A stretch of 59,897 nucleotides of DNA. Origin: Thiomicrorhabdus sp. (lineage in GTDB: Bacteria > Pseudomonadota > Gammaproteobacteria > Thiomicrospirales > Thiomicrospiraceae). Numbering within the stretch: position 1 is the stretch's first letter; the number at the start of each line of letters is the position of its first letter. Shown here one piece after another: positions 1 through 58,660 of the stretch. Location: assembly GCA_015487495.1 (NCBI GenBank), contig WFPP01000104.1, positions 1 to 59,897 of the forward strand, given 5' to 3'. The position numbers and the translations under genes were made by a program. The notes under the pieces were generated by a model, which was not told the origin of the DNA, did not search any database, and was given only the letters and a program-made list of their open reading frames with translations.

Positions 1-107
1 GAGGGAGATCTATCTACTTTCAAGCTCACCAAAGTGGCTTTAGGGGGGGACGATCTTCCCAAAATTCTATTCTTAGAATAAAGCAAGCCAATAAAAAAAA
101 CTAATGA

Positions 108-755
108 CTGTTTGGTTTTCTTTCACTAGATGTAAACATACAAGGGGGGGGAGGAAAATTAGACGCTAATTATCTTGCCGGAATTAATGCTTCTGTTGCA
201 GGAGATGAGTGGAAAGTGAGAGCGGGTTATACCATTGGAGAGATGAATAATCCGGCTTATCAAGTAACGGCTGCAACAGAGGGCGCTTATTTAAATGATG
301 ACATGGGGTCGTTTTTAACCCTTGGGGCAAGCTATGATAATGGCGGGCTATTGGCAATGGTTGAGTTTGCAAAACGAAACGTGGAAGATGCGGAAGCCAT
401 TGCCAACTTAACGGGGGCTTATATTACATTAGGGTATCAGTTTAATGGTTTTACCCCTTATATAACTTATCAGGTACAAGAAACGGATGATAAAAATCGT
501 GCAATCGGTGTAAATTCAGATTTTAAAGCGCTGAGCTTAGGGGCAAAATATGAGTTTGCCAAGTCGAATATTGCCATTAAGGCTGAGGTAACAAATTTTG
601 AATTTGGTAAAAGTGAAGCATTTCCTACTTTCGTACCAGGCTTTGGATTTGTAACAGTACCTGCGGGTTATGTTAATACCTTAACAGGCAATGATACTAC
701 GGCGGGATTAAAATCCGCTAAAGTCTTAAATTTAACATTAGAAACCATGTTTTAA
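108..755 (+). CDS. Outer-membrane porin, C-terminal part (5' end broken or missing)
   Basis: The frame open from 108 to the stop at 753-755 encodes alternating polar and hydrophobic strands with aromatic residues at their ends. It finishes in ...ETMF; a C-terminal phenylalanine is the usual assembly signal of beta-barrel outer-membrane proteins. The repeated GAxYxxG-type strands fit the C-terminal half of a general or anion porin. There is no signal peptide and no good start: two in-frame stops (TAA, TGA) lie at 102-107, and the first start-like codon is a GTG at 216 with no Shine-Dalgarno. A run of eight G lies at 144-151 and seven G at 43-49, so a slip-type frameshift is a plausible cause of the missing N-terminus. 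Alternatively the upstream 107 bases are unrelated. Porin identity is fairly sure; functionality is doubtful. Confidence 0.6.
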   Translation: MFGFLSLDVNIQGGGGKLDANYLAGINASVAGDEWKVRAGYTIGEMNNPAYQVTAATEGAYLNDDMGSFLTLGASYDNGGLLAMVEFAKRNVEDAEAIANLTGAYITLGYQFNGFTPYITYQVQETDDKNRAIGVNSDFKALSLGAKYEFAKSNIAIKAEVTNFEFGKSEAFPTFVPGFGFVTVPAGYVNTLTGNDTTAGLKSAKVLNLTLETMF

Positions 756-764
756 GGGGGAGGT

Positions 765-1133
765 ATGAAAAAATTAATAATAGCATCTATTTTAATGATG
801 CCTTTGTCTGCGGTGTTTGCAGGTGTTGTTGCCATTGAAAACCCTGCTGATAGTTATTCTAAACAGGATGTAATCAATGCATGGAAAGGGAAGACCTCGG
901 CTCAATTAGTGGAAAATGCGGCCGCATCGGATGCATTTTACAGCACCATTATTGGCAAAAGCGCGTCCAGTGTTGAAAAGAAAATTAAACGAAAAGTATT
1001 TTCTGGGCGCATGGCCTCGCCTAAAAAGTTAAATTCAGACTCTGAAGTCATTGATTATATTGCTTCTAACCCTGGTTCAATAGGGTATGTGAATGATTCC
1101 AGTGTGAACGCTTCAGTCAAAGTGATTAAATGA
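765..1133 (+). CDS. Small periplasmic phosphate-binding (PBP-like) protein
   Basis: A 122-residue protein with a clear Sec signal peptide (MKKLIIASILMMPLSAVFA, cleavage about residue 19). The rest resembles the short stand-alone PBP-like domain related to phosphate-binding PstS: a start like VVAIENPAD, a central FYSTIIGKSASSVEKK segment, and an end with the typical S-x-P-G-S-I-G-Y pattern. Such proteins bind a small anion in the periplasm. It starts 9 bases after the porin stop, with GGGGGAGG just before the ATG as ribosome-binding site, so it is probably co-transcribed with the porin. Porin plus PBP-like pairs suggest anion (possibly phosphate) acquisition, but the ligand is not shown by the sequence. 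Confidence 0.65.
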   Translation: MKKLIIASILMMPLSAVFAGVVAIENPADSYSKQDVINAWKGKTSAQLVENAAASDAFYSTIIGKSASSVEKKIKRKVFSGRMASPKKLNSDSEVIDYIASNPGSIGYVNDSSVNASVKVIK

Positions 1134-1165
1134 AGCACTCATTATTAACATGACCTCAGTATTGT

Positions 1166-1198
1166 GTCGTTACAGTATCGCTTGGTGGTATTGTAACG
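1166..1198 (+). other. Hairpin after the PBP-like gene
   Basis: Arms CGTTACAGTA (about 1168-1177) and TATTGTAACG (about 1189-1198) pair with one G-T wobble, 35 bases after the stop of the PBP-like gene. There is no T tract after it, so a factor-independent terminator is not shown; it may stabilise the mRNA end or be an operator. Confidence 0.35.
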
Positions 1199-1273
1199 GG
1201 ACTTTAATATGTGTATTTTTTAAAGAAGCGATTTAATCAGATTTTTTTAAGAAGTAAGTATGAAGTAAGTATA

Positions 1274-1462: not shown

Positions 1463-1525
1463 AGTTCAGAATGGCATTGAGTGTGTGAATATACAAATTA
1501 CGAATGGTTTATAAAAGGAAACAAT

Positions 1526-9164: not shown

Positions 9165-10385
9165 TTGGCAGTATTTGAATATAAAGCGTTAACCAAGCAA
9201 GGTAAAACGGAAAAAGGGTTGCAGGAAGGAGACTCGGAACGTCAAATACGTCAGATTTTGCGGGATAAAGGGTTGACCCCCCTTTCTTTGGTGGCGATTG
9301 AAAAAAAAACAACACGAAACAATGCGTCTAAAAAAAGTTTTTTTGCTCACAAATTAAAAGTGGCCGAGTTGGCACTGTTTACACGTGAATTGTATACCCT
9401 GCTGGATGCCAGTACGCCGTTAAAAGAAGCCTTAAAGGCATTGTCAATCCAGAGTGAATCCAAACAGGTCGCGCGTTTTATTACCAGCTTGCATACCCAT
9501 GTTTCAGAAGGATACTCGTTGGCCAACGCGATGGCATTAGCCCCGGTGATTGTGCCACGAGACATGATTGCCACCATTCAGGCAGGGGAGGAGAGTGGAC
9601 ATCTGGATAAGGTGCTTTCCCGTTTGGCGGATTCGATTGAACAGCAAGATAACTTAAATAAAAAAATGAAAACCGCACTGATTTACCCGATGTTAATGGT
9701 TGTGGTGGCGGTGGCGATTGTCTTCTTTTTAATGATTTATGTTGTGCCCAAGGTGGTCAGTGTCTTTGATAATATGCAGCAAACCTTACCGCCATTAACG
9801 CAAGGTTTATTAAGCTTAAGTGCTTTTGTTCAAAATCAATGGCCAGTCATGCTGGGGGTAGGCATTGCACTATGGTTGGCAAGTATTTGGGCAATGAAGC
9901 GCCCTAAGTGGCGTTTTGCTGTGCACACCTTTTTATTAAAGGTGCCAGGGCTTAAACGCTTTTTAGTTTATTCCGCAACGGCGCGCTGGTCTCGTACATT
10001 TGGTGTTTTGGTGCTTAGTGGCGTGGCCATTAAAGATGCACTTAAAATTTCAGCCGAAGTGATGACGCTTGACCCAATGAAACAAGGCGTGTTGCAAATG
10101 GTTGACGAGGTGAGAGAGGGAAAACCCGTTTATCACGCCATGCAAAAAGTAGGATTTTTCCCCCCCCTGTTGTTAAATTTGGTTAAAACAGGAGAAGGAA
10201 AAGGTCAGCTCGATACCATGTTAATTAAAGGTGCAGAGCATTATGAGACGGCGGTAGAGTCGACCGCCACTGCATTGGTTAGTATTTTAGAACCCGTGTT
10301 AATTATTATTATGGGAGGCGTTGTGCTTACCATTGTCATGGCCATTATGATGCCACTATTTGAAATGAACCAAATGATAGGATAA
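9165..10385 (+). CDS. gspF: Type II secretion system inner-membrane platform protein GspF
   Basis: A 406-residue polytopic membrane protein with two GspF domains (about 70-195 and 275-400) and three membrane segments, the last near 375-395 (ALVSILEPVLIIIMGGVVL). It anchors GspE and GspL and is thought to pass energy to pseudopilin assembly. The start is a TTG at 9165, supported by AAAGGAAGAAGG a few bases upstream and by the family N-terminus (AVFEYKAL). A run of eight C at 10160-10167 codes for the Phe-Pro-Pro-Leu stretch of the second domain; slippage there would disrupt the gene. Confidence 0.95.
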   Translation: MAVFEYKALTKQGKTEKGLQEGDSERQIRQILRDKGLTPLSLVAIEKKTTRNNASKKSFFAHKLKVAELALFTRELYTLLDASTPLKEALKALSIQSESKQVARFITSLHTHVSEGYSLANAMALAPVIVPRDMIATIQAGEESGHLDKVLSRLADSIEQQDNLNKKMKTALIYPMLMVVVAVAIVFFLMIYVVPKVVSVFDNMQQTLPPLTQGLLSLSAFVQNQWPVMLGVGIALWLASIWAMKRPKWRFAVHTFLLKVPGLKRFLVYSATARWSRTFGVLVLSGVAIKDALKISAEVMTLDPMKQGVLQMVDEVREGKPVYHAMQKVGFFPPLLLNLVKTGEGKGQLDTMLIKGAEHYETAVESTATALVSILEPVLIIIMGGVVLTIVMAIMMPLFEMNQMIG

Positions 10386-10843: not shown

Positions 10844-11380
10844 ATGCCATTGAACGTGCATAAGGGCTTAAAAAAACAGGCCGGCTTTACTTTAATTGAA
10901 TTAATGGTCGTGGTGGTCATTGTCTCGGTAGTCACCAGTATCAGTATTTTATCATTAGGGTCGAGTGATCAAAAAAAGCGACTGTCACAGCAAAACCAGA
11001 TTAAAACCTTGTTGACGTTTGTGAGAGATCAATCCACTTTTGACCGAAAGCTTTATTTGGTTGTTCCCAAAAAAGAGGGGCTGACTACTTATGTTTTTTC
11101 TGACAATGTTTGGAAAGTTTCTCCCAAAGTAGACTTTTTAGCGTGGCAACCTGGGTTGGCATTTCGCTGGACAGTGGATGATGTTTTTGCCGACAAACAG
11201 CAACTTCCAGAAGCTGGCTGGATGGCTTGGCCAACGGGGGATGTTCTGGAAGGTGAGATTGTATTTTGGGTGGGAGACTGGAACACGAAGCCCAAGAAAG
11301 AAGACCGTGTCCGTGTTTCATGGGATGGTTTATTGCGTTTTGATTCCGCAACAGATACTGCAACACAAGAGGGGGGGTAA
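10844..11380 (+). CDS. gspH: Type II secretion system minor pseudopilin GspH
   Basis: A 178-residue pseudopilin with leader cleavage after Gly14 ([14 protein letters not shown]) and Glu at +5. The globular part is beta-rich, as expected for GspH, a minor pseudopilin near the tip of the pseudopilus. It starts 5 bases after gspG. The last codons contain a run of seven G (11371-11377) directly before the TAA, and this run pairs with nine C at the start of the gspI region. Confidence 0.88.
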   Translation: MPLNVHKGLKKQAGFTLIELMVVVVIVSVVTSISILSLGSSDQKKRLSQQNQIKTLLTFVRDQSTFDRKLYLVVPKKEGLTTYVFSDNVWKVSPKVDFLAWQPGLAFRWTVDDVFADKQQLPEAGWMAWPTGDVLEGEIVFWVGDWNTKPKKEDRVRVSWDGLLRFDSATDTATQEGG

Positions 11381-11411
11381 AAAATTTGCTGAAAAAAAAT
11401 TTCCCCCCCCC
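11371..11411. repeat. Inverted G7/C9 tract with A/T blocks at the gspH-gspI junction
   Basis: GGGGGGG (11371-11377) is followed by TAAAAAATTT, a 4-base spacer, AAAAAAAATTT and CCCCCCCCC (11403-11411). The G and C tracts and the AAATTT blocks can pair to form a hairpin covering the gspH stop and the first possible gspI start (TTG 11386). It belongs to the G-tract motif family scattered through the window. Confidence 0.6.
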
Positions 11412-11797: not shown

Positions 11798-12484
11798 GTG
11801 TCAAAGCATGGCTTACCCCATTATGTTCACACATCTGTCATGCCTTGTTCAAAAAAAGAGCAAGGTTTTACCTTAATTGAGTTGTTAATTGCGCTCGCCA
11901 TTTCAGCTATTATTTCGGCATTGGCGTATCAGGCAATCAACAGTGTGGTGAACGTACAGACCCAAGTGCAAAGCAGTGCTCAACGAATGGAGACAGTACA
12001 GCGTGCGGTTTGGTGGTTGGAGCAAGACCTCATTCAAGTTGCACCGCGTGCCATTCGAGATGGATTTGGTTCTTCCTTGCCTGCGTACCTCTACCGTTCT
12101 GACTTAGGGCTAGAAATGACACGCATTGCTCAGTTTCCAACCCCAAATGCATCTGGGGGATTATTGCGGGTAGGGTATCGCCTGGAAAATAATACCTTGT
12201 ACCGTTTAACGTGGTCAGTGATTGACCGAGCACCAGATAGCCGACCCAAAAAAATACCCTTGTTGACGGGGGTTAAACGCTTTGAAGTTCGTTTACTGGA
12301 TGCTGAAAATCAATGGGTAAATAGTTGGCCAAATGAAAGCGGAGCTGGGCAAGGAAATCTTCCACCAATAGGGGGGGGGAATATTTCTGCCCCCCCCGAG
12401 TCATTTTTGCCTAAAATGACTGAAATAACCATTGAGCTGGAAACTCTGGGCACCATTAAGCGTTTGTTTATGGGAGCGTTTTAA
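11798..12484 (+). CDS. gspJ: Type II secretion system minor pseudopilin GspJ
   Basis: A 228-residue pseudopilin; the cleavage site is EQG|FTLIELLIALAISA with Glu at +5. The rest matches GspJ, with an early V-W-W-L-E-Q-D-L segment and a beta-rich C-terminus ending in IKRLFMGAF. The GTG at 11798 follows the gspI stop by one base; an ATG at 11840 would leave a shorter, more typical 9-residue leader. The gene contains both a G9 run (12371-12379, coding Gly-Gly-Gly) and a C8 run (12390-12397, coding Pro-Pro), which lie in an inverted arrangement in a surface loop rather than in the pseudopilin core. Confidence 0.92.
   Translation: MSKHGLPHYVHTSVMPCSKKEQGFTLIELLIALAISAIISALAYQAINSVVNVQTQVQSSAQRMETVQRAVWWLEQDLIQVAPRAIRDGFGSSLPAYLYRSDLGLEMTRIAQFPTPNASGGLLRVGYRLENNTLYRLTWSVIDRAPDSRPKKIPLLTGVKRFEVRLLDAENQWVNSWPNESGAGQGNLPPIGGGNISAPPESFLPKMTEITIELETLGTIKRLFMGAF
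12371..12397. repeat. Inverted G9/C8 tract inside gspJ
   Basis: G9 (12371-12379), then AATATTTCTG, then C8 (12390-12397). It codes for Gly-Gly-Gly-Asn-Ile-Ser-Ala-Pro-Pro in gspJ and could fold as a G/C-clamped hairpin in mRNA. It belongs to the same motif family as the tracts at 12763 and 14254, which are also followed by an A/T block ending in TTTCT. Confidence 0.6.
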
Positions 12485-13468
12485 GTGTTGCACAATCATC
12501 TCAAACCTCCTCAACAGGGGTTTGCTTTATTGACCGTCTTAATGATTGTGGCGCTGATTGCCATGATGGGAAGCCAGTTGTTGTATGAGCAATATACAGG
12601 CATTAAACGCAGTGGTCACATGTTGCATCAAGCGCAATCATTTGCAGTGCAATGGGGAGTGGAGTCCTGGGTTAAAACTGGATTAAAGCGAGACAAGGAA
12701 GCGAATAATAATGATAATTTAGTAGAGATATGGGCTGAACCTTTTGGTCCAATCCCCTATGAGGGGGGGGAAATTTCTGCCAAACTGATTGATTTGAATC
12801 GTCGCTTAAACCTAAATAATATGATTGAACCCAATGCTTCACAACGTCGTGTTTGGGAAGCGGTTTTAAAACGTTATGTTAAACAAAATGCATTAACGCC
12901 ACGGTTTTCAGAGCTGGTGATGGATTGGGTGGACAGCAATGACGTGCCTATGCCTTATGGTGCAGAAAGCAATACCTATCTCTTGTTAAAGCCTGCGTAT
13001 AGCGCGGCAGATCACCCTATGGTGATGTTGAGTGAACTGAGGTTGCTTGACGGGTTGCAACGAATAGAGCATGAACAATGGCTGGTATTGCAACAAGATT
13101 TGACCACACTGCCAAAAGTGACCAAAATTAATATTAATACTGCTGAGCGTCGAGTCTTACTGGCGCTTACGCCTTGGTTGAATGAAGGCATTGTTGTAGC
13201 ATGGATGGCACAGCGTTTAAACGAACCTGCCCGAAAAGTAAATGATTTTATTGACTTTTTAGTCGAGAAAAGTGGGTTGCCACGCAGTGAAATCAAAGGC
13301 GATTTACCCGACTGGATGATTAGTGTGGAGAGCGAGTATTTTTTATTGAATACGCAGGTAAATTATGGGGAGTCACAACAAGGAATATCCGCCATTTTGA
13401 TGCGAAAAGCCGAGCAAAATCAAATGGATATTCGTGTGCTTCAAAGATGGTTAAGAGACGATGGATAA
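12485..13468 (+). CDS. gspK: Type II secretion system minor pseudopilin GspK
   Basis: A 327-residue large pseudopilin. Cleavage is expected after Gly12 (PQQG|FALLTVLMIVALIAMMG). The residue at +5 is Thr, not Glu; loss of Glu5 is the known hallmark of GspK, the cap of the pseudopilus. The large alpha-helical domain (about 100-290) includes the conserved L-I-D-L-N-x-R-L-N-L-N-N and I-N-I-N-T-A-x-R motifs. It starts with a GTG directly after the gspJ stop. A G8 run followed by AAATTTC lies at 12763-12770 and codes for Gly-Gly-Glu. It is the last gene of the first gsp block; gspL follows after 129 bases. Confidence 0.93.
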   Translation: MLHNHLKPPQQGFALLTVLMIVALIAMMGSQLLYEQYTGIKRSGHMLHQAQSFAVQWGVESWVKTGLKRDKEANNNDNLVEIWAEPFGPIPYEGGEISAKLIDLNRRLNLNNMIEPNASQRRVWEAVLKRYVKQNALTPRFSELVMDWVDSNDVPMPYGAESNTYLLLKPAYSAADHPMVMLSELRLLDGLQRIEHEQWLVLQQDLTTLPKVTKININTAERRVLLALTPWLNEGIVVAWMAQRLNEPARKVNDFIDFLVEKSGLPRSEIKGDLPDWMISVESEYFLLNTQVNYGESQQGISAILMRKAEQNQMDIRVLQRWLRDDG

Positions 13469-13597: not shown

Positions 13598-14860
13598 ATG
13601 GTTTTTTTCGGGATGAGCAGGGTTGCTACAAAGGAACCAGTAGAGAGGTGCTCAGTGCTTACTAAACAAATAAAAGAGGTTCCTGTGGAATCAAAAGCGT
13701 TGGCACTTAATCATTTAATGGCGCATTTTGACCTTAATGGCAACCTGGTGGTTCAGGATGAATCGGGTCATGTGTTAGAGACAGAGGCGTGCATTGCACA
13801 ACTGAAGCAGCAAGGCCATTTAAAAACGGTGCTTGCAACAGTATGGGTGCCGAGTGCATCAGTGTTGTTAACAGAGGTGTTTGTACCAGGAAAACGCAAA
13901 TCGGACTGGATGGCTGCCTTGCCTTATGCGTTGGAAGAGTCGTTATCTGAACCCGTTGAACAGTTTCACTTTGTTGCCTTTCATAAATCCAAGGATGACA
14001 GAGTGTCTGTTGCGATTGTGCCACATCAAAAAATGGCTCACTGGGTTGACTCCCTTGAGTCTTTAGGGTTAGGCCATGCACAGTTACTGCCTGAGTGCTT
14101 TCGAGTGCCTTTTAAAGGCAGCGTTTTAGAAGAAGAGGTTATTTGGTTTGTTATTCAGGAACAAGCACAATATCATGTTCGAACGGGTGAATATTCAGGG
14201 TTTTCAGCGGATAAAAATGAATTGGAATTATTTAAAAAGGTTGCGGAACAAGAGGGGGGGAAAGTTTCTATTGTGACTCTTAATGCGTCTGAGTTACTTG
14301 ATAGTCAAGCCTCTTCTGTTACACATCTAACCCTTAGAACCGAAGAGTATCAAGCGCATTCTAAAGGATTAATGTATTGGAAAAATTGGCGTTGGCCTGC
14401 ATTTTGGGTGTTATTGTTGCTTGTCGTATCATTGCTTTTTACTTGGCAAAAAACACAGCGTTTAGCCGAACAAACACAACAATACAAGGCTGAAACCGAA
14501 CGTTTGTTTAAAACGTTGTTTCCAGATGTGAAGCGCATTGTAAACATTAAAATGCAAACCCAAACACGCTTAAATGCTATTTCGGGTAATCAAAACCAAA
14601 GTGATTCGCTGGTTACGCTTTTAAAAGAGATTGAGCCGCTGTTTTTGGCCGATCCAAATGTTAATATTAACGCCATTCAGTGGCGAACTGACTCTCAGGG
14701 TGGGCAATTACAGGTGAGTGTTGAGGCCGCGCAAACCAGTCAGCTGCAAATGATTGTTACAGTGAGCCAAAAGAAAGTCCCCTCCATAAAGGTGGAGTTG
14801 GAGCTTAAAAATGTTACCCCCTCTCTGGTTGAAGGAGTTTTCCATGTCCGTTCTCAGTAA
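13598..14860 (+). CDS. gspL: Type II secretion system inner-membrane protein GspL
   Basis: A 420-residue bitopic protein. It has a cytoplasmic actin-like domain (about 30-250) that binds GspE, one membrane helix (about 265-285, WPAFWVLLLLVVSLLFTW), a coiled stretch, and a small periplasmic ferredoxin-like domain that pairs with GspM. The first ATG is at 13598; another ATG at 13613 is also possible and neither has a strong ribosome-binding site. A G7 run followed by AAAGTTT lies at 14254-14260 (Glu-Gly-Gly-Lys). The gene overlaps gspM by 17 bases. Confidence 0.9.
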   Translation: MVFFGMSRVATKEPVERCSVLTKQIKEVPVESKALALNHLMAHFDLNGNLVVQDESGHVLETEACIAQLKQQGHLKTVLATVWVPSASVLLTEVFVPGKRKSDWMAALPYALEESLSEPVEQFHFVAFHKSKDDRVSVAIVPHQKMAHWVDSLESLGLGHAQLLPECFRVPFKGSVLEEEVIWFVIQEQAQYHVRTGEYSGFSADKNELELFKKVAEQEGGKVSIVTLNASELLDSQASSVTHLTLRTEEYQAHSKGLMYWKNWRWPAFWVLLLLVVSLLFTWQKTQRLAEQTQQYKAETERLFKTLFPDVKRIVNIKMQTQTRLNAISGNQNQSDSLVTLLKEIEPLFLADPNVNINAIQWRTDSQGGQLQVSVEAAQTSQLQMIVTVSQKKVPSIKVELELKNVTPSLVEGVFHVRSQ

Positions 14861-23570: not shown

Positions 23571-23969
23571 ATGATGCGTTTGTTACACACCATGTTGCGA
23601 GTTGGCAATTTAGAAAAATCGATTCACTTTTATACCAAGGTACTGGGTATGACGTTGCTTCGTCAAAAAGAGTACCCAAAAGGCGAATTTACATTGGCTT
23701 TTTTAGGGTATGGCAATGAGGAAAACAATACCGTATTGGAGCTAACCTACAACTGGGGTGTTGATGCTTATGAATTGGGCAGTGGTTACGGACACATTGC
23801 GATTGAAGTGCCGGACGTTTATGCAATGGCTGATGCAGTGAAGGCAGGGGGGGGGAAAATTATTCGGGAAGCGGGGCCAATGAATGCAGGCAATACCATT
23901 ATTGCCTTTGCCGAAGACCCTGATGGCTACCAAATTGAGTTTATTGGTGAGAATCACGTTAGAACGTGA
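23571..23969 (+). CDS. gloA: Lactoylglutathione lyase (glyoxalase I)
   Basis: A 132-residue glyoxalase I that isomerises the methylglyoxal-glutathione hemithioacetal to S-lactoylglutathione. If the second of two adjacent ATGs (23574) is used, metal ligands fall at His5 (LLHTMLRV), Glu in [10 protein letters not shown], His in GYGHIAIEV and Glu in YQIEFIGE, as in the Ni-dependent enterobacterial enzyme. AAAGGAGAG is the ribosome-binding site. A G9 run followed by AAAATTATT (23847-23855) codes for Gly-Gly-Gly-Lys; a one-base slip there would remove the last ligand. Confidence 0.95.
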
Positions 23970-24569: not shown

Positions 24570-24635
24570 CCACTAAGAAGGTTGATTTAATTAGCTCTTT
24601 TTAAAGGGGGTTATGAGCATTATTTGTTATGGATA

Positions 24636-24690
24636 AAAATTCTTCCCCCCCTTGCTTCTCTTAAAAAGAAGCAAGGGGGGGAAGAATTTT
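24636..24690. terminator. Perfect 24-bp stem terminator, bidirectional
   Basis: The left arm 24636-24659 runs from AAAATTCTT through C7 to TTGCTTCT, and the right arm 24667-24690 is its exact complement, with a 7-base loop. T or A tracts lie on both sides, so it can terminate ppnP on the plus strand and the small membrane-protein gene on the minus strand. The arms contain the G7/C7 plus AAATT motif, in inverted pair form. Confidence 0.85.
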
Positions 24691-24691
24691 T

Positions 24692-24856
24692 TTACTGTTT
24701 ATTTTGTTTATGGTCAGACTCTTGCTCTTCTTTTTGTACTCTAAGCGCTTGTCTTTTATTACGCTCTGAACGATTCATAAAATGTTGTGCAAAATGAATA
24801 GCGATGAGTAGAACAAAAAATCCCATGCCAATTTCTGCAATGTATTCAATCCACAT
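24692..24856 (-). CDS. Small single-pass membrane protein (54 residues)
   Basis: A short minus-strand gene. ATG at 24854-24856 follows CAGAGGTCTAATATT, a reasonable Shine-Dalgarno; TAA at 24692-24694 abuts the shared terminator. The product starts MWIEYIAEIGMG, has a hydrophobic helix (about 6-24) and then a charged Arg/Lys/Glu/Gln-rich cytoplasmic tail. It lies convergent to ppnP and divergent from sulP, so its 5' region faces the sulP promoter region. I do not recognise the family. Coding sense is supported by the start signal, the membrane helix and the immediately following terminator. Confidence 0.6.
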   Translation of the reverse strand: MWIEYIAEIGMGFFVLLIAIHFAQHFMNRSERNKRQALRVQKEEQESDHKQNKQ

Positions 24857-34959: not shown

Positions 34960-35715
34960 TTAAACAATGCTTGATACATTGGTCTTTCTGTAAGGTTGAC
35001 TGATGGTCAGGCATTTTTTTTTGGTATCTGAAGGGACGCAGAGGATGATGTGCCAAGGTTCACAAAAAGAAGCGCATTGGTTGGTTTGATGCAACCAGTA
35101 TTCAAATAAGTTCGCCAAATCCCCGTCAAAACAGCCTGGAGCTGCTAAATTGCTGGCAAGCCGATTGGTGATATGCCAATCTTCTAATAGTGTGCAACAT
35201 CCAATGGCTTCTGGTGGTAAATAATTAACCATTAATTGTGCGGGTTTGATTCGAAATGGAAAGTGCTCGTGGCTGTGCAGTAATGCAAGTGTTTGCCCTT
35301 TTTTTTCACCATGATAGGCGCTTATTTGAGCACTTCGTTGTTTGGCCAGATAAAAAACATTGGCAATGTGGAGGCCTGAGCCTAAAAAGAGCAAGTTTTC
35401 TGATGGATGAATTTGAATCGGGTGTTTGTTTGTTGAAGGTGTTATCTGTAACTGTGTCTGTTTTGTGATTGAAACGGGTTGCTTGCATAAAAATTGTAGA
35501 TGGTGTTGTGTGTTTGAGGGGGTGTGTTGAAATAAACACAATGTTTCATTATGGTCGGACAGGCGAAAATGATTGTTAACATCAAATAGGGGGGGGGCAT
35601 ATTTTTGGGTTTGACTTGGGTATTGAGGAAAACAGGCCGAAGGGAGCTTAAGGTTAATGAGCCAAAATCCCCCCTCTTGTTCTGTTTGAGAAAAATCTTG
35701 AATTGGGTACATTTT
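34960..35715 (-). CDS. PyrK / ferredoxin-reductase-like protein (putative)
   Basis: A 251-residue protein if it starts at the ATG giving MYPIQDFSQ (35715); the open frame continues upstream into pyrX. The first half is beta-rich like an FAD-binding barrel; the second half begins with E-N-L-L-F-L-G-S-G-L-H-I-A-N-V-F-Y-L-A, the pattern of an NAD-binding half of flavin reductases. A PyrK-type [2Fe-2S] Cys cluster is not evident; the C-terminal Cys (APGCFDGD, QCASFCEP) are spaced differently. Placement 7 bases after pyrX hints at pyrimidine metabolism. Function is uncertain. A G9 run lies on the plus strand at 35589-35597, inside the gene. Confidence 0.5.
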   Translation of the reverse strand, partial: KMYPIQDFSQTEQEGGFWLINLKLPSACFPQYPSQTQKYAPPLFDVNNHFRLSDHNETLCLFQHTPSNTQHHLQFLCKQPVSITKQTQLQITPSTNKHPIQIHPSENLLFLGSGLHIANVFYLAKQRSAQISAYHGEKKGQTLALLHSHEHFPFRIKPAQLMVNYLPPEAIGCCTLLEDWHITNRLASNLAAPGCFDGDLANLFEYWLHQTNQCASFCEPWHIILCVPSDTKKKCLTISQPYRKTNVSSIV

Positions 35716-39511: not shown

Positions 39512-40597
39512 TTATAACAGAGAGATTCTGGCAGCCATGGCTTCTGTTTGAAAAATTTTTCCGTGATGGTCGACAGCGAATATCATGCGAATCCCTAATG
39601 ATTGTGCGATGGTTTTCCATTGTTTTGGCCCTGCAATTAAAAGTGCAGTGGCTCCGGCATCGGCGGTAATGGCATTAGGATGCAGAACGGTAACCGAAGC
39701 AAAGCTGTCTGCGGGGTATCCCGTTTTTGGGTTCAATACATGAGAGTAACGTTTGCCTTGCCATTCAAAGTAGCGTTGGTAGTTGCCAGAGGTGACGATG
39801 GCTTCATTATGTTTCAGTGAAAGAGAGGCCAGTAATAAATTTGGTTTTTTAGGATTTTGAATGCCAACGCGCCAAGGCTCCCCATTTTTAGAACCAATGA
39901 CTTTCATATCCCCCCCAATGCTGACAAGCGCATTTTGAATGCCGGATTGTTTTAAGCGTTCGAGTGCCATATGAATGGCCAGTCCTTTTGCATTGCCCCC
40001 AAAATCCAGTTGCACATTAGGGTTACGGCTGTAGAGAATATTGTCTTGAAAGTAGATATCCAACAGGCTGGGATGGTTATTAAGCCAGTGTTGAATGGCT
40101 TCTTGACTGGGAGGAGGGCCTTGCCATGTTTCAGAATGAAAGCCCCAGAGTGCAACCAGTTGCCCAATTCCCGGGTCAAATAATCCTTGGCTTTTTTGCG
40201 TGAGCTTTTGAGATTGAAGAATAAACGATTTAACCGAGTTGGTAACGGTAATCGGCGTTTGTTGTGCAATGGCTTGATTGATTTTACTGATAATCCCCCC
40301 TTGCTCCCAAGCATGCCATTGTTGATGAAATTGTTGAAAGCTGCGCTCAACAGCTAGAACGGCTTGTTCTGCTTGTTGAGCCTGATGAGGTTCATGGTAA
40401 ATGACGATATTGACCAAGGTGCCAAACACAACAAGGGTGCTTTTGTAGGGGATCTGATTTTGCGTAGAACAGCTCAATAGCATTGTAGTAAGCCCCGCCA
40501 ATACCAGTATATTACGTGCTTTACGGGAAAGAATCACGAAGCAAACTTGATTGATCACAAGTGCAAGAACCTTTTTTAAGGAAGGGTGGTTTTTCAT
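39512..40597 (-). CDS. apbE: FAD:protein FMN transferase (ApbE), lipoprotein
   Basis: A 361-residue enzyme that attaches FMN to Thr of periplasmic flavoproteins such as the Na-pumping NADH dehydrogenase or RnfG. A lipobox L-L-S-C lies at Cys43, so the leader is long and the true start may be later. Core motifs include the F-D-P-G-I-G-Q-L segment, D-F-G-G-N-A-K-G-L-A, V-S-I-G-G-D, the HVLNPKTGYPAD loop and T-A-D-A-G-A-T-A. It ends 8 bases before yqgE and is probably the first gene of the yqgE-pyr transcript. C7 at 39910-39916 is one of the G-tract family. Confidence 0.93.
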   Translation of the reverse strand: MKNHPSLKKVLALVINQVCFVILSRKARNILVLAGLTTMLLSCSTQNQIPYKSTLVVFGTLVNIVIYHEPHQAQQAEQAVLAVERSFQQFHQQWHAWEQGGIISKINQAIAQQTPITVTNSVKSFILQSQKLTQKSQGLFDPGIGQLVALWGFHSETWQGPPPSQEAIQHWLNNHPSLLDIYFQDNILYSRNPNVQLDFGGNAKGLAIHMALERLKQSGIQNALVSIGGDMKVIGSKNGEPWRVGIQNPKKPNLLLASLSLKHNEAIVTSGNYQRYFEWQGKRYSHVLNPKTGYPADSFASVTVLHPNAITADAGATALLIAGPKQWKTIAQSLGIRMIFAVDHHGKIFQTEAMAARISLL

Positions 40598-46493: not shown

Positions 46494-47441
46494 ATGTCTA
46501 GCTTTATAACGGGTGTTGATCAAAGAACCTCTTTGGCGGGTATGAACCGTATGGAGTTGTTGCTGTTTACAATTAGAGGTTCGCAACTGTTTGGCATTAA
46601 TGTGTTTAAGGTGAGAGAAGTGATTCGGACCCCGCCTATTTCACAAGTTCCAAAATCGGATTCACGAGTCGTGGGGGTATCGGATATTCGAGGTTTAACC
46701 ATGCCAATGATTGATTTGGCCAAGGCACTGGACTTGGAGCCGATTGATCCTGAAAATTATCAAAACAGTCTAACGATTGTGACGGAATTTAACAGCTCCA
46801 TTCAGGGGTTTTTGGTAGAAGACGTGGACCGTATTGTGCATTTGCGCTGGGAAGATATTTTACCCCCCCCTCCTACCTTGCAAGGGGTTAACTATTTAAC
46901 GGGTATTACGCGGGCACAAGAGCAAATTGTGGAAATTGTGGATGTTGAAAAAGTTTTGGTAGAAGTTTCTGGTATTTCAAATGACGTTTCTGAAGAGTTG
47001 ATTTCCCAAAATAAAGTGAATGCACAAGGCGAAAACTTTTTTGTTGTCGCGGCCGATGACTCGGTGGTAGCGCGCGCTCAGCTAAAAGGGGTGTTTGAAA
47101 ATTTAGGCCTTAAGTACAAGATATTAAATAATGGTAAAGAGGCGTTGGATTTTTTAACGAAGTTGGCGGATGAGCTGGGGGATAATCAAAATCTTGATGA
47201 TAAGGTCTTGATGGTGATTTCAGATATTGAAATGCCAGTAATGGATGGTTACACCTTAACCACCAGTATTCGCAAGGATGACCGTTTAAAAACGTTATTT
47301 GTGGTTTTAAATTCGTCACTCAGTGGCGGATTTAATGACTCTTTAACCGAAAAAGTGGGTGCCAATGTCTTTATTTCCAAATGGCATGCCGATGAATTGG
47401 CTGAAACGATTATTGGCCAAATTAAAAAACATCAGGCATAA
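46494..47441 (+). CDS. cheV: Chemotaxis coupling protein CheV
   Basis: A 315-residue fusion of a CheW-like domain (about 20-165) with a receiver domain (about 180-310). The phospho-acceptor Asp lies in MVISDIEMPVMDG (about residue 243), and a Lys in F-I-S-K-W-H near the end completes the receiver active site. It couples receptors to CheA and adapts by phosphorylation. A C8 run at 46863-46870 codes for L-P-P-P-P. flgT starts 52 bases downstream. In vibrios cheV and cheR lie in front of flgB; here flgT replaces cheR. Confidence 0.96.
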   Translation: MSSFITGVDQRTSLAGMNRMELLLFTIRGSQLFGINVFKVREVIRTPPISQVPKSDSRVVGVSDIRGLTMPMIDLAKALDLEPIDPENYQNSLTIVTEFNSSIQGFLVEDVDRIVHLRWEDILPPPPTLQGVNYLTGITRAQEQIVEIVDVEKVLVEVSGISNDVSEELISQNKVNAQGENFFVVAADDSVVARAQLKGVFENLGLKYKILNNGKEALDFLTKLADELGDNQNLDDKVLMVISDIEMPVMDGYTLTTSIRKDDRLKTLFVVLNSSLSGGFNDSLTEKVGANVFISKWHADELAETIIGQIKKHQA

Positions 47442-47493: not shown

Positions 47494-48867
47494 ATGGCGT
47501 GGTATCAACAGGTCCTTAAATTCTTCTTTAAAGGGGGGAGCGTATTCGTTTTTTTGATCTTTGCATTGAATGTTCAGGCGGGTGTATTCGATTTTTTTTG
47601 TGTGCAAAGCGATGAGGCGTGTCAGGAAAAGGCGTTGAATCCAGCAACGAATTCAACGGAAACTCAAATGGCATCAAAAAATATCTCCCCCCCTTTGGGC
47701 TCAATAGCGTCGTCACCTGATTGTGTGGAGGTAAAAGGGGCTTCCAGTATGGAGGGCGTGGATAAAGCCTTTGCTCGAAAAATGGCCATTCGAGATGCAC
47801 TAAAGGTGGCAAGCCTTAAAAATAATGTCAATATTCGTACCGATCAATCCGTTGAATCGTATCAGCTAACACTGGACAGTACGCGCTTTACTTCAAATAG
47901 TAAAATTAAACATTACAGCGTTTTAAAGGAAGGCGTTGAAGACCCAGAAGATCAATATGGTCAAACCAAAGAAGGGGCTTTGAACTATGAGGTGACGCTT
48001 ATGGTGTGTTTAACTGAAGAGGCTGGAATTTGTACGGGGCTTGAAGGCAATCAATATCAACCCCGTTTGGCAATTGCTCCCGTTGTGATGCCTTTTGGCA
48101 GTGATGTACGAGATATTTCAAATGTGTTATCGGGCTATCAATTAGAGCTGGAGAGACGTTTTAAGCAAAAAGACCACCGCAATCTGTCTTTGTTGTCAGA
48201 AACAATTGATTTGCAGCCAAACCTTACCGTTTTTCCAAATTTAGATCGCGCATTATTAACGGATATTCAAAATAAAACAGGAGCACAATTTTTATTGTTA
48301 ACCGTAATTCGCTCCGCGGCAGCGCATACCGATACGGGGGTATTGAGTACAGCAAAACGCTTCTATGATATTCATGTTTCACCCAGTACACGTTATCTTG
48401 AAGTGGATTCGTATATTGTTGATTTAATGAAAAAAAATCTCGTTCATCAGTCGCGGAACGGGGTGAGCATTGAAGGAAAGGTGTTGGTGGGGCGCAATAA
48501 ACCGTTTGGTAGCAATGCTTTTTTTGCAACGGAAACGGGAAAAGGATTTGAATCACTGTTAAAAGAGCAAACTAAAGAGGTGTTGGATTTTTTGCATTGC
48601 AAACCTTTTGAAAGCCAGGTAATTGATGTGCGTGACGGTGAGTACGTTATTTATTTGCATGAGGCTTCGGGTGCAAAAGTAGGGGATGATCTTGCCGTGT
48701 ATCATGTAAAAAATCGTCCTGTTCGGTTTGCGGGCGAATGGTTGGGGCAAGATCAACGACCGGGTGCTTTTTTAAAAATAAAACGCATGATGCCCAATTT
48801 TGCCATTGCGGAATTGACAGCCAAAAAAGGCGTGGTGCAAGTGGGGGATATTGTTAAAACATGGTAG
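47494..48867 (+). CDS. flgT: Flagellar assembly protein FlgT (H-ring type)
   Basis: A 457-residue secreted protein with a signal peptide (mature start near GVFDFF). It has an N-terminal FlgT domain with the V-x-V-x-G-x-x-S-M-E-G-V-D-K-A-F-A-R pattern, a middle TolB-like domain (from about 195) and a C-terminal small domain. FlgT forms an extra basal-body ring in vibrios. I choose the ATG at 47494 with CAGGGA upstream; the open frame reaches back into cheV. No flgO or flgP is in the window. C7 at 47687-47693 codes for Pro-Pro near the mature N-terminus. Confidence 0.82.
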   Translation: MAWYQQVLKFFFKGGSVFVFLIFALNVQAGVFDFFCVQSDEACQEKALNPATNSTETQMASKNISPPLGSIASSPDCVEVKGASSMEGVDKAFARKMAIRDALKVASLKNNVNIRTDQSVESYQLTLDSTRFTSNSKIKHYSVLKEGVEDPEDQYGQTKEGALNYEVTLMVCLTEEAGICTGLEGNQYQPRLAIAPVVMPFGSDVRDISNVLSGYQLELERRFKQKDHRNLSLLSETIDLQPNLTVFPNLDRALLTDIQNKTGAQFLLLTVIRSAAAHTDTGVLSTAKRFYDIHVSPSTRYLEVDSYIVDLMKKNLVHQSRNGVSIEGKVLVGRNKPFGSNAFFATETGKGFESLLKEQTKEVLDFLHCKPFESQVIDVRDGEYVIYLHEASGAKVGDDLAVYHVKNRPVRFAGEWLGQDQRPGAFLKIKRMMPNFAIAELTAKKGVVQVGDIVKTW

Positions 48868-49548: not shown

Positions 49549-49953
49549 ATGTTTAATATTTTAGATATTTCAGCCAGTGCCATGCATGCACAAACGGTTC
49601 GTTTAAATACCATTGCATCCAATATGGCCAACGTGAACAGCATCAGCTCCAATGCCGAAGAGACTTATCGTTCAAAACAACCTGTTTTTCAAACCATTTT
49701 GGAAGGCAGTAAAAATGAGCCAAAAGGGGGGGTAAGAATTAAAGAGATTGTGGAGAGTCAAGAGCCGCTTAAAATGGAATTTAACCCCTCGCATCCTATG
49801 GCAAATGAAGAGGGTTATATTTTTAGACCCAATGTGAATATAGTGGAAGAAATGGCGAATATGATGTCGGCTTCTCGTTCGTATGAAACTAATATTGAGG
49901 TGATGAATACCTCAAAGCAATTGTTATTAAAAACCATGCAGTTAGGTAAGTAG
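49549..49953 (+). CDS. flgC: Flagellar basal-body rod protein FlgC
   Basis: A 134-residue proximal rod protein: early N-T-I-A-S-N-M-A-N-V-N-S, and C-terminal A-S-R-S-Y-E-T-N-I-E-V-M-N-T-S-K-Q-L, both family motifs. A G7 run followed by TAAGAATT (49726-49732) codes for Lys-Gly-Gly-Val in the middle domain. It is co-transcribed with flgB and flgD. Confidence 0.96.
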   Translation: MFNILDISASAMHAQTVRLNTIASNMANVNSISSNAEETYRSKQPVFQTILEGSKNEPKGGVRIKEIVESQEPLKMEFNPSHPMANEEGYIFRPNVNIVEEMANMMSASRSYETNIEVMNTSKQLLLKTMQLGK

Positions 49954-52702: not shown

Positions 52703-52728
52703 GGGGGGGATTTATTTAACCCCCCCCC
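52703..52728 (+). other. G7/C9 hairpin in the flgF leader
   Basis: GGGGGGG (52703-52709), ATTTATTTAA, CCCCCCCCC (52720-52728), then TTATTTTTAAATT. It resembles a terminator but lies between the sigma-54 promoter and flgF, so it may act as an attenuator. The flgF ribosome-binding site (GGTTGGAG) is just after it. Confidence 0.6.
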
Positions 52729-54314: not shown

Positions 54315-54338
54315 ATTTAAAGTGGTCAGGAGAGGAAT

Positions 54339-55061: not shown

Positions 55062-55133
55062 GTTTAAAAAATTTTCCCCCCCCCTATCGGTTGATGAGGG
55101 GTAAATTAGGTATGGTTAAGTAAGGAGTTCCAA

Positions 55134-56234: not shown

Positions 56235-56284
56235 TCAGCGCTTCTTGATTATTACGGATTAAAAAAGTGGGATAATAAATCGTT

Positions 56285-56755
56285 ATGGAACGGTTAAACT
56301 CAAGTAACATGGCATTGAATCAACCTAACCAGTCTTCTTATACTCAAGCGCACCACAACTATTCGGATGTGAATGCCTTAAGTGATTTAAAAACTAAGGC
56401 CAGAGAAGATCAGGCATCGGCACTGAGACCTGTTGCAGAGCAGTTTGAAGCTCTGTTTGTACAGCAGATTTTAAAAGAGTCCAGAAAAGTGAGTTTTGAT
56501 GATAATTGGCTGGATGGAAATCAGGGCGATTTTTATAAAGACTGGTATGATAAACAACTCGCATTAAATTTATCGGCTAAAGGAACCTTGGGGTTTGCCG
56601 ATACATTAGTTGAACAGCTGTCTCCCCGTATTCCAGTGACCCTAGAATCGGCTAAGCGTCAGCTTGAACAGCAGGAAAAGCCAAAAGCTGAGGGTAACCC
56701 CCTTCCTGCTTCCACAGAGCAAGCACTGGCACTACGGTTGGGCCAGTTAAAATAG
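56285..56755 (+). CDS. flgJ: Rod-binding protein FlgJ, short form without muramidase
   Basis: A 156-residue protein containing only the rod-binding domain (about 45-115: V-A-E-Q-F-E-A-L-F-V-Q-Q-I-L-K-E-S-R). The muramidase domain found in enterobacterial FlgJ (about 310 residues) is absent, so peptidoglycan opening must be done by another enzyme. The TAG abuts a G5/C8 hairpin. Confidence 0.92.
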   Translation: MERLNSSNMALNQPNQSSYTQAHHNYSDVNALSDLKTKAREDQASALRPVAEQFEALFVQQILKESRKVSFDDNWLDGNQGDFYKDWYDKQLALNLSAKGTLGFADTLVEQLSPRIPVTLESAKRQLEQQEKPKAEGNPLPASTEQALALRLGQLK

Positions 56756-56756
56756 A

Positions 56757-56778
56757 GGGGGAAAAAATTTCCCCCCCC
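56757..56778 (+). other. G5/C8 hairpin between flgJ and flgK
   Basis: GGGGG (56757-56761), AAAAAATTT, CCCCCCCC (56771-56778). The flanking AGA and TCT can extend the stem. It lies right after the flgJ stop and 25 bases before the flgK ATG; possibly a processing or attenuation site, and a member of the G-tract motif family. Confidence 0.55.
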
Positions 56779-56803
56779 TCTCTCTTAAAAAAGGATTGTG
56801 ATC

Positions 56804-58660
56804 ATGGCGGATATGTTAAGTATTGGAACGGCAGCAACCAACAGCTTTAAAAGAGCGTTAGATGTAACCAGCCAAAACGTGGCAAACGTTGCGACAGAAG
56901 GGTATAGCCGTCAAAGAGCCGAAATTGCAAGCAATACTCCCAATACCGTCGGATTAGGATTTCAGGGAGGGGGAGCCAGAATTGAAACCATTGAGCGAAT
57001 TAATGCCGAGTATTTGCACTCTCAATTAGCGAACAGTCAATCGCTGGTGGAACGCTATTCCGCGCAAGTTGAATTGGCGAGTCAGGTGGAAGGTGTCATT
57101 GCAAGTAACGACCAGGGAATTCAGGAGTTTTTGCAACGCTATTTTGATGCATTGCAAAACTTGTCGGATAACCCGACATCGGATACCAGTCGACAAATGC
57201 TGATTGATGAAGGTAAAAACCTGCAAAGTCATATTGGCAATTTAACCGCTGTTTTAGACGACACACAATACCAGCTTAATTCACAAATATCAGGGTTGGC
57301 GGATGAAATCAACAGTCGTTTAGAAACCATTCAAGCCGTGAACATTCAAGTAGAACGAGCCAACCGTGTTGGACAGCAAGCCCCCAATGAGTTGTTAGAT
57401 CGTCGAGATCAAGCGGTTCTGGAGCTTAGTCAATACATGGACATTAAAACGTTTCCACAAGAAAGTGGACGCGTGGACATTCATACCGCCAATGGACAAC
57501 TGCCTCTTTTAAGCGATAATACCATTACGCGACTGGAAGTGGATCGTAGTCCTTATGGAGATGATAACCGAACGGAAGTGTATATGAGTATTGGTGGAGG
57601 GCGTCAGTTGGTGAGTGATCAAATAGCCGGTGGTCAACTGGGGGGGGCGTTACACTTTAGGGATAATTTGCTTGAAAAAGCAAAAAATGATTTAGGTTTA
57701 ACGCTAAACGGATTGACCGCTTCCATGAACTGGCAGCACTATCAGGGCTATGATATTAATGGAGACGCAGGTGGAAATTTATTTACCCCCCTTGCCTTGA
57801 ATGCCATTAATAATACCGATAATACCGGAGTGGAAACCGGCACCAATATTTTAGTGAGCTTTAATCCTAATGCGGGGGTGTCAGAACCACCATATGATGG
57901 CGCAACGGGATTGAGTTTACAACCTGCGACTTATGGTGATAAAGAGAGCTACTTGCAAAATGCATTTACCGAGATAGGACGCTTTGAATCACGTTCGTAT
58001 GAGTTACGTTATAATCAGGCAACGGATGAATTTGACTTTTTTGATTACAATACCAAAGCTCCTTTGCTGGATAGCACGGGCACGCCTATTACCCTTGCAA
58101 GAGGCGCGGTAGGCAATATTGAAGGCATGTCATTTGATCTGAGTGGTGTGACCACTGCGCCCGATGATCGAGATTCTTTTTTGGTGAAACCACACCAAAC
58201 GATTCTCGAAAATTTTGGGCAAGAATTAAATGCAACTGAAAAGGTTGCAACACGCGGTCAAAGCCCCATTGACAACGACAGTGATGGTTCTATTCTGGAC
58301 GAAGCGCCTGCCAGTGCAGCCGTAGGTGATAATGTGAATATTTCCAATTTGGCGGGACTGCAATCCACCAAACTTTTATTGGCAGACAGCAGTGATGTTG
58401 GTTCAGAAACCTTATTGGGTGGGTACTCCAAGATGGCCACCAATGTAGGGATGTATGTGCGGGGATCCGAGATTCAACTGACCGCACAAAGCAATGTTTT
58501 TCAGCAAGTAACCGATCAGCGTGATTCCATTTCTGGTGTGAGTTTGGATGAAGAAGCGGCCAATTTAATGCGGTATCAACAGGCTTATGAAGCGGCCGCG
58601 CAAATTATTGCGACCTCTCAAACGCTCTTTCAAACGATTTTAGATGCGGTTCGGCGATAG
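56804..58660 (+). CDS. flgK: Flagellar hook-associated protein FlgK
   Basis: A 618-residue hook-filament junction protein. I choose the ATG at 56804 (MADMLSIGTAATNSF; AAAAAGGATTG upstream) over the GTG at 56798. The N-terminal V-T-S-Q-N-V-A-N-V-A-T-E-G-Y-S-R-Q and C-terminal S-L-D-E-E-A-A-N-L-M-R-Y-Q-Q-A-Y-E-A-A-A motifs are characteristic. A G8 run at 57640-57647 codes for Leu-Gly-Gly-Ala. flgL follows after 10 bases. Confidence 0.96.
   Translation: MADMLSIGTAATNSFKRALDVTSQNVANVATEGYSRQRAEIASNTPNTVGLGFQGGGARIETIERINAEYLHSQLANSQSLVERYSAQVELASQVEGVIASNDQGIQEFLQRYFDALQNLSDNPTSDTSRQMLIDEGKNLQSHIGNLTAVLDDTQYQLNSQISGLADEINSRLETIQAVNIQVERANRVGQQAPNELLDRRDQAVLELSQYMDIKTFPQESGRVDIHTANGQLPLLSDNTITRLEVDRSPYGDDNRTEVYMSIGGGRQLVSDQIAGGQLGGALHFRDNLLEKAKNDLGLTLNGLTASMNWQHYQGYDINGDAGGNLFTPLALNAINNTDNTGVETGTNILVSFNPNAGVSEPPYDGATGLSLQPATYGDKESYLQNAFTEIGRFESRSYELRYNQATDEFDFFDYNTKAPLLDSTGTPITLARGAVGNIEGMSFDLSGVTTAPDDRDSFLVKPHQTILENFGQELNATEKVATRGQSPIDNDSDGSILDEAPASAAVGDNVNISNLAGLQSTKLLLADSSDVGSETLLGGYSKMATNVGMYVRGSEIQLTAQSNVFQQVTDQRDSISGVSLDEEAANLMRYQQAYEAAAQIIATSQTLFQTILDAVRR

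Follow-up and report, generated by a model that had tools for sequence, protein, structure and literature searches.

A poly-G motif with a one-sided A/T block, iterated in a single Thiomicrorhabdus clade, as a candidate DNA-uptake signal

The genome from which the window (the whole analysed stretch of 59,897 nucleotides) was taken carries a strongly over-represented, directional motif with the consensus A-G7-9-AAAAWTTTT. Judged from its sequence form and its distribution among relatives, this motif is, on balance, probably a USS-like DNA-uptake self-tag and a clade-specific dialect of a family-wide element. The sequence-only reading of the window had likened the tracts to DNA-uptake sequences or HIP1, and with regard to form this comparison holds, as seen in copy numbers in the hundreds, occurrence on both strands, coding and intergenic placement, inverted pairs and dialects.

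Over-representation and architecture of the motif

All 25 runs of at least seven G or C that had been listed for the window were recovered at their starts (Table 1), with 14 runs of G and 11 of C by plus-strand letter, and the seven runs said to be nine bases long were confirmed. The earlier expectation of approximately two such runs stands (two to three), although the composition assumed for it, 22% each of G and C, was wrong, the window holding 24.6% G and 17.7% C. The claimed A/T block on the 3′ side of the G run, scored as at least seven A/T in nine bases, was present in 22 of 25 cases; on the 5′ side it was seen in only 6. By inspection, the runs without a good block are those at 43, 31360 and 57640. 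A known RNA family was dropped as an identity, as an Rfam scan of the window returned no match.

Table 1. Poly-G runs in the window, given as read on the G-bearing strand. Gene names are readings of the ORF translations, made without a family search.
Run	Position	Strand	Context
G7	43..49	+	no good A/T block (exception)
G8	144..151	+	A/T block on 3′ side
G8	10160..10167	-	inside reading frame (FPPL; gspF); present in 5/5 other carriers, missing from 4/4 aligned non-carriers
G7	11371..11377	+	left arm of inverted pair with 11403..11411, gap 25
G9	11403..11411	-	right arm of inverted pair with 11371..11377
G9	12371..12379	+	left arm of inverted pair with 12390..12397, gap 10, single A/T block common to both; retained in 3/3 carriers aligned at that site
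G8	12390..12397	-	right arm of pair with 12371..12379; not retained in aligned carriers
G8	12763..12770	+	coding DNA (YEGGEIS); retained in 2/2 aligned carriers
G7	14254..14260	+	coding DNA; 1/1 aligned carrier also with G run
G9	23847..23855	+	A/T block on 3′ side
G7	24645..24651	-	left arm of long inverted repeat with 24675..24681
G7	24675..24681	+	right arm of long inverted repeat with 24645..24651
G7	30055..30061	+	
G7	31360..31366	-	A/T block poor (exception)
G9	32312..32320	+	coding DNA (GQGGGNFF); A/T block on 3′ side
G9	35589..35597	+	A/T block on 3′ side
G7	39910..39916	-	
G8	46863..46870	-	coding DNA (LPPPPT)
G7	47687..47693	-	
G7	49726..49732	+	frame read as flgC; retained in G001, not in G017 or aligned non-carriers
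G7	52703..52709	+	gap 5′ of frame read as flgF; left arm of pair with 52720..52728, gap 10; nearby run in 2/4 aligned carriers
G9	52720..52728	-	right arm of pair with 52703..52709; not retained in carriers compared
G9	55076..55084	-	flgH-flgI gap
G8	56771..56778	-	flgJ-flgK gap; run also in 4/5 other carriers (not G012)
G8	57640..57647	+	frame read as flgK; without A/T block; retained in no aligned relative; probably a chance occurrence

The analysis was extended to a genome sample of 431,897 bases, comprising the window and 20 stretches from contigs having motif matches. This choice of contigs did not inflate the density, with 99 occurrences of GGGGGGGG in the 432 kb compared with 530 in 2037 kb. 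The sample contained 136 runs of at least seven, while Markov models of order 1, 2 and 3 gave about 30, 20 and 60, respectively (five simulations each), the order-3 model having partly learned the runs themselves. In agreement with the claimed placement within and between genes, 104 of the runs were coding and 32 non-coding, and 40 synonymous codon shuffles yielded a mean of only 24.3 coding runs (sd 4.5, max 35). Genome-wide, GGGGGGGNAAWTTT reached 134 copies and the reversed pattern 7. Perfect forms of the motif numbered 53 against 0.5 expected under the Markov model and one-off forms 50 against 9; the count of singly interrupted cores, 24 compared with 28 in a mirror control, disagrees with this Markov-model result. 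An assembly artefact is unlikely, with the in-frame run at 10160 recurring at the corresponding position in all five other carrier assemblies.

The core of the motif is sharply delimited, as the asymmetry of the A/T flank is found at runs of seven or more (100 of 136 on the 3′ side, 51 of 136 on the 5′ side) and not at runs of 4 to 6 (441 and 514 of 1698, respectively). Within the flank, a T-tract lies at +6 to +8 on the 3′ side of 202 of 348 poly-G runs and on the 5′ side of 91, and its distance from the 3′ end of the G run is constant across run lengths of 7 to 10. The poly-G form is thus non-palindromic with a one-sided, 3′ T-tract, and the flank profile up to +40 showed no second A/T segment beside the core. 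The T-tract was also present beside the different cores of relatives, at 44 of 52 half-sites in G028, 25 of 38 in G015 and 36 of 68 in G024 (background 22%), and it lies 6 to 8 bases beyond the core in every dialect profiled.

The inverted pairs that had been pointed out number four in the window; among neighbouring pairs less than 60 bp apart in sequence sampled from six genomes, 19 of 21 were inverted. When the four window pairs were folded, one was strongly terminator-like and the remaining three were weaker. The predicted hairpin at 24628-24700, a 25-pair stem with a T run (-43.7 kcal/mol, z -8.27), looks like an intrinsic terminator.

Distribution, site conservation and competence genes

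Within the family, the poly-G motif was found in 6 of 62 genomes (24 to 134 matches), the other 56 having 0 to 3, and in a class sample of 369 genomes none besides the carriers exceeded 4 matches. The six carriers form a clade within the genus Thiomicrorhabdus with a support of 1.0 (FastTree). A different iterated motif, the palindrome ACCAGGCCTGGT, is found in many other members of the family, its core occurring as many as 856 times. Ten of 32 genus genomes have 106 to 856 copies of CCAGGCCTGG, and three of five other family genomes searched have 263 to 461, compared with 0 to 1 in the six poly-G carriers. A third motif, ACCGGCCGGT, reaches 1025 copies in G024, a single species, and both it and ACCAGGCCTGGT are virtually missing from the poly-G clade. 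Among the family genomes, the dialects track phylogeny. On the simplest reading, the palindrome is the ancestral motif. A scan of viral contigs with a 16-base form of the motif returned three contigs with one match each.

Positions are partly conserved between species. In 19 of 35 pairwise comparisons, carriers retained a run of at least seven, compared with 364 of 2102 for random coding 7-mers, and at aligned sites of non-carriers no such run was found (0 of 14). The retained runs occur at 74-78% identity between carriers. Aligned coding runs sit ungapped over the Gly/Pro codons of relatives and therefore arise by substitution. In the flgH-flgI gap, all five carriers for which there is sequence, counting the window, have a poly-G run, 8 of 10 palindrome-rich species have the palindrome, and 9 of 9 motif-poor ones have neither motif.

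With regard to competence genes, DprA was found in all six carriers and ComEC in five, as an 899-residue frame in the source genome and split across two contigs in G001; it was not found in the carrier G029, whose genome is 79% complete. ComEC is also present in G003, G013, G020 and G025, whose sampled sequence of about 100 kb yielded no iterated motif, and DprA likewise occurs in motif-less species. ComEC thus does not track the motif, because it occurs in motif-less species and was not found in one carrier. A search for the GspH/FimT family, of low sensitivity with only 3 of 37 genomes matched, gave no receptor candidate in the carriers. To our knowledge, there is no culture of any poly-G carrier.

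Comparison with known systems and alternative explanations

According to the available portions of the sources, Pasteurellaceae USS have an A/T segment immediately 3′ of the core, with A's first and three to four T's last, and subclade dialects (PMC1626085), extended forms and terminator pairs (PMC12616744), and A/T tracts that are thought to aid kinking (PMC7811141). The motif described here likewise has a short core directly followed on the 3′ side by an A/T segment (A's then T's), occurs in hundreds of copies on both strands in coding and intergenic DNA, and shows inverted pairs that may form terminators as well as subclade dialects following phylogeny. It differs from the USS in its family, in having a poly-G core of 7 to 9 (relatives have a palindrome) where the USS has AAGTGCGGT / ACAAGCGGT, and in lacking both the USS inner core GCGG and the second downstream A/T segment. 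Its density of approximately one copy per 3 kb is also below the roughly one per kb given for both USS and DUS. Neisseriaceae DUS are similarly iterated with clade-specific dialects, but they have no flanking A/T motif, all of their dialects contain a CTG core that is missing from the poly-G core, and their receptor ComP is known, whereas the GspH/FimT search of the carriers found none.

For the uptake reading, we infer a DNA receptor on the cell surface, probably one of the minor pilins in a type IV pilus, which would bind an uninterrupted G-tract of at least seven and use the adjacent A/T block, with its T-tract 6 to 8 bases downstream, in bending or melting the DNA so that it can enter. The DNA would then pass ComEC and be recombined, and sites are proposed to accumulate because tagged DNA of kin would preferentially enter and overwrite untagged alleles. 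In the clade's ancestor, the older palindromic tag ACCAGGCCTGGT would have given way to the poly-G core with the A/T geometry retained. The inverted pairs may serve as hairpins as well, at least one of them being strongly intrinsic-terminator-like. Against this reading, the palindrome seen in relatives would be a better fit for a dimeric protein than for a pilin.

Poly-G is no usual methylation target, which counts against a HIP1-like element, that is, one that spreads in connection with a DNA methyltransferase, repair or recombination function and not through uptake; we regard this alternative as unlikely. As with the cyanobacterial HIP1, the form found in relatives is an iterated perfect palindrome with hundreds of copies, but the poly-G form is non-palindromic with a directional A/T block, and the flanking T-tract common to the profiled dialects is not in the HIP1 core GCGATCGC as given in the available part of the source (PMC4390886). 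A binding site for a chromosome-organising or nucleoid protein, the specificity of which was altered in the poly-G clade, is unlikely to the same degree. Such a site would fit the strong one-sided consensus and the conserved intergenic positions. However, the spacing of the runs in the source genome sample is near random (CV 1.07) with 104 of 136 in coding DNA, hundreds of sites were replaced between sister lineages, a large share stands in inverted pairs, and regulatory-type sites are usually looser in consensus, as far as the available text of PMC1626085 goes.

Mutational bias, which had also been raised from the sequence alone, or slippage, with G-tracts growing beside A/T blocks owing to a polymerase or repair defect in the clade, appears quite improbable. 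It agrees with the confinement to one clade and with the origin of coding runs by substitution over Gly/Pro codons, but homopolymer growth accounts neither for a T-tract at +6 to +8 on one flank only, nor for an identical geometry next to the palindromic cores of relatives, nor for the retention of runs at their positions in 19 of the 35 comparisons, at the identities given above. Slightly less probable again is a Chi- or KOPS-like recombination or segregation signal, read in one orientation by a motor protein. Signals of this type would not be expected to come in inverted pairs accompanied by A/T blocks, both of which are frequent here. They are short, G-rich and directional like the poly-G motif, and G lies on the leading strand (by GC-skew sign) in 95 of 136 runs; however, control runs of 4 to 5 without the flank show a similar excess (1163 of 1582), which leaves no strand bias beyond that given by composition, and an identity with Chi or KOPS was dropped. 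Phase-variable (contingency) tracts are very improbable and were likewise dropped, as is the hypermutable tract family suggested earlier: tracts of 7 to 9 G are long enough to slip, but several runs in frames read as secretion or flagellar genes keep frame and a similar length across species (the in-frame sites 10160, 12371 and 12763 are retained), and many sites hold their position inside conserved reading frames.

Meaning for the family

Beyond the single motif, it is about an even call that the family has an undescribed uptake-signal system of its own, comprising at least three dialects, namely ACCAGGCCTGGT with relaxed CAGGCCTG variants, ACCGGCCGGT and AG7-9AAAAWTTTT, in which one clade would have exchanged its palindromic core for poly-G and retained the A/T entry block. 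In the accessible, mostly non-subscription literature on uptake sequences in the Thiomicrospira/Thiomicrorhabdus/Hydrogenovibrio group and on poly-G, no earlier description of the poly-G motif was found, and among the matches listed for the palindrome, no title referred to an iterated bacterial motif. In the sources available, the uptake signals described come from Neisseriaceae and Pasteurellaceae. Were marine sulfur oxidisers to join them as an unrelated family using several dialects, this would offer a direct test of changes in uptake specificity, and could reveal which part of the tag, core or A/T block, the receptor reads and whether dialects isolate species. If the reading is true, the core switch is a natural record of how a receptor changed its specificity and how species became cut off from one another's DNA. 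The uptake reading would also predict natural competence in these bacteria and suggest a practical route to their transformation.

Poly-G runs in the window and the clade that carries them

All 25 runs of at least seven G (C on the other strand) listed by the sequence-only reading are present in the window. With an A/T block defined as at least 7 A/T among 9 bases, the block lies where that reading had placed it, 3' of the run, in 22 of the 25, and 6 of the 25 qualify on the 5' side. In 431,897 bases of this Thiomicrorhabdus genome (the window plus 20 stretches chosen from contigs on hit lists), 136 such runs were counted, with lengths of 7, 8, 9, 10, and 11 occurring 72, 35, 24, 4, and 1 times, respectively, where Markov models of order 1, 2, and 3 predict approximately 30, 20, and 60 runs. 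At 99 copies in 432 kb, GGGGGGGG was no denser in this sample than across the full assembly, which contains 530 in 2037 kb. The claimed excess over chance also held within genes, as 104 runs are coding (simple frame caller) and 40 synonymous-codon shuffles yielded 24.3 (sd 4.5). The other 32 fall within the non-coding 10.9% of the DNA, which corresponds to a roughly twofold non-coding enrichment, though most sites are genic. The motif pattern GGGGGGGNAAWTTT matched the assembly 134 times and its reversed form 7 times. Perfect forms (53) exceeded a Markov expectation of 0.5, as did singly interrupted ones (50 vs 9); the latter result, however, disagrees with a mirror control, against which singly interrupted cores showed no excess (24 vs 28).

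The poly-G motif is real, strong, and clade-specific. Between 24 and 134 matches were found in six of 62 family genomes (the carriers G000, G001, G012, G017, G023, and G029, which include the genome of the window) and 0 to 3 in the remaining 56, while a class sample of 369 genomes contained none above 4 matches except the genome of the window. Among the 80 stretches listed in a scan of named genomes, Thiomicrorhabdus sp. S013_67 alone had many (10), followed by S012_112 with 2, another Thiomicrorhabdus assembly with 1, and other organisms with 1 to 2. The six carriers form a clade with a FastTree support of 1.0, sister to the relative G028, in a phylogeny built on ten flagellar proteins and covering 32 genomes, several taxa being represented by part of the proteins.

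The consensus opens with an A at −1 (in 79%), followed by the G run and by nine A/T-rich positions in which A's precede T's, with T commonest at +6 to +8; the flank profile holds no second A/T segment further downstream. At least two T's at +6 to +8 were found on the 3' side of 202 of 348 runs and on the 5' side of 91 of 348 in samples of the six genomes, and the one-sided flank was not seen beside runs of 4 to 6. The distance of this T-tract from the 3' end of the run is constant for runs of 7, 8, 9, and 10, and the register is therefore fixed by the 3' edge.

Conservation and arrangement of the sites

Conservation of position, a check proposed by the sequence-only reading, proved partial: a run of at least seven was kept in 19 of 35 pairwise comparisons between the genome of the window and the five other carriers (15 to 33 kb per carrier, 74 to 78% identity), a somewhat generous test, since a small shift was allowed and several comparisons concern the same site. 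Kept runs made up 12 of 22 coding and 7 of 13 non-coding comparisons; random coding 7-mers were identical at 364 of 2102 positions. With G028 and G015, none of 14 comparisons showed a kept run. At 10160, the residues Phe-Pro-Pro-Leu are written with an unbroken C run of 7 or 8 in six carriers and with other codons in four non-carriers, which indicates that such sites arise by substitution (synonymous here) and not by insertion.

With regards to strand, GC skew places G on the leading strand in 95 of 136 runs, a share no greater than that of runs of 4 to 5 (1163 of 1582). Spacing was near random except for pairs (CV 1.07). The inverted pairing noticed earlier was recovered across 886 kb of the six genomes, where 19 of 21 neighbouring runs less than 60 bp apart were inverted and the 21 compare with about 8 expected in any orientation. 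Gap lengths concentrate around 10 and 24, and in G-then-C pairs with a gap of 10 one A/T block is common to both cores. One window pair is predicted to form a long stem (see table); the other three fold less remarkably (z −0.75, −1.87, and −2.63).

Coordinates of an inverted pair and of a second dispersed element in the window
Feature	Position	Description
Inverted pair 24645/24675	24628-24700	25-pair stem then T run, −43.7 kcal/mol, z −8.27
Second dispersed element, copy	26885	approximately GGACTTATTCAGAGCTTCCTTAA
Second dispersed element, copy	43596	approximately GGACTTATTCAGAGCTTCCTTAA

The second dispersed element also occurs on the sampled stretches L021, L023-L026, L031, and L033-L035, with about 16 of 23 GAGCTTCCT matches assigned to it by eye in 432 kb of the genome of the window. 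Its exact word CTTATTCAGAGCTTCC was absent from sampled stretches of nine other genomes checked.

Palindromic motifs in relatives

An unbiased search for over-represented words returned ACCAGGCCTGGT in G028 and G015, CAGGCCTG with variable outer bases in G005, G018, and G026, and ACCGGCCGGT in G024, with no clear word in approximately 100 kb each of G003, G013, G020, G025, and G031. For G020, about 100 copies of a local repeat were set aside; these contain GGCAGCTAAGA (L200-L204, L162) and may represent a CRISPR array or tandem repeat, for which a short-form search on one strand only gave no locus. The palindrome ACCAGGCCTGGT, with core CCAGGCCTGG and T-tracts on both sides, was seen in G028, G015, and further genomes of the family (e.g., L151, L154, L185-L199). 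Counted over whole genomes, CCAGGCCTGG occurs 106 to 856 times in 10 of 32 genus genomes and 15 to 44 times in five more. Of the five genomes searched from elsewhere in the family, three have 346, 263, and 461 copies, and each of the six poly-G genomes has at most one. The palindrome ACCGGCCGGT (L210-L214) occurs 1025 times in G024; none of the 36 further family members searched has more than 15 copies. Exact and one-off palindrome counts were 38:34, 52:36, and 68:20; reversed controls gave 0 to 2. Several other lineages hold few copies of either motif.

We think that the poly-G and palindromic motifs are dialects of one element, as suggested by T-tract geometry, placement between flgH and flgI, and mutual exclusivity. 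Half-sites with at least two T's at +6 to +8 from the 8-base core number 44 out of 52 for G028, 25 out of 38 for G015, and 36 out of 68 for G024, against a background of 22%, and the profiles of G005, G018, and G026 peak at the same place; the tract flanks palindromes on both sides and poly-G on one. The flgH-flgI gap contains poly-G in all five carriers with data, the palindrome in every palindrome-rich species but G006 and G016 (8 of 10) and in 2 of 4 intermediate-count species, and neither in nine of nine motif-poor species, which is suggestive only, as this is a single locus and an intergenic gap. In G004, G005, and G021, CAGGCCTG lies at the flgH edge rather than in the gap, and the stretch compared for G024, G002, G012, and G013 yielded no flgH. 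None of 37 family genomes searched for both motifs has both in number.

Relation to uptake signals

The uptake signal sequence (USS) of Pasteurellaceae resembles the poly-G motif in that an A/T segment, A's then T's, adjoins the 3' side of its core, and two USS dialects divided by subclade are described in the same source (PMC1626085). The extended USS is given as AAAGTGCGGTCAATTTT or AACAAGCGGTCAAATTT, and USS and the DNA uptake sequence (DUS) of Neisseriaceae are described as commonly paired, with a terminator function (PMC12616744); by eye, the half-sites CCGGTAAATTTT (G024) and CCTGGTCANTTTT (G028) resemble the 3' half of the extended USS. DUS dialects are reported to act as interspecies barriers (PMC3630211). 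The poly-G core, however, has nothing in common with GCGG or CTG, and the motif is thus not classed as a Pasteurellaceae USS; by analogy, we propose that it would work like one. Among the papers listed in literature searches on uptake sequences in this group of bacteria, on the palindrome, and on poly-G motifs, none was found to describe the motif.

The competence protein ComEC was found in 33 of 37 genomes, including genomes where no motif was found, with an 899-residue frame in the genome of the window, and DprA in all 15 searched. ComEC was not found in one carrier (79% complete) and lies on two contigs in another. A low-sensitivity GspH/FimT family search yielded no receptor candidate. In G031 (99% complete), neither a ComEC family match nor, in its sample, an iterated motif was found; the sister genome G014 does match ComEC and holds few palindromes. 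The comEC of Piscirickettsia salmonis is reportedly interrupted by transposable elements (PMC12955456).

Overall, the poly-G motif is probably, though by no means certainly, a dialect with a homopolymer core of a USS-like uptake signal that spans the family; the main alternative is a cytosolic binding function. The iterated palindrome ACCAGGCCTGGT counts as a finding in its own right. Since the poly-G clade branches from within a set of lineages that bear the palindrome, the palindrome would most simply be the older state, later replaced by poly-G.
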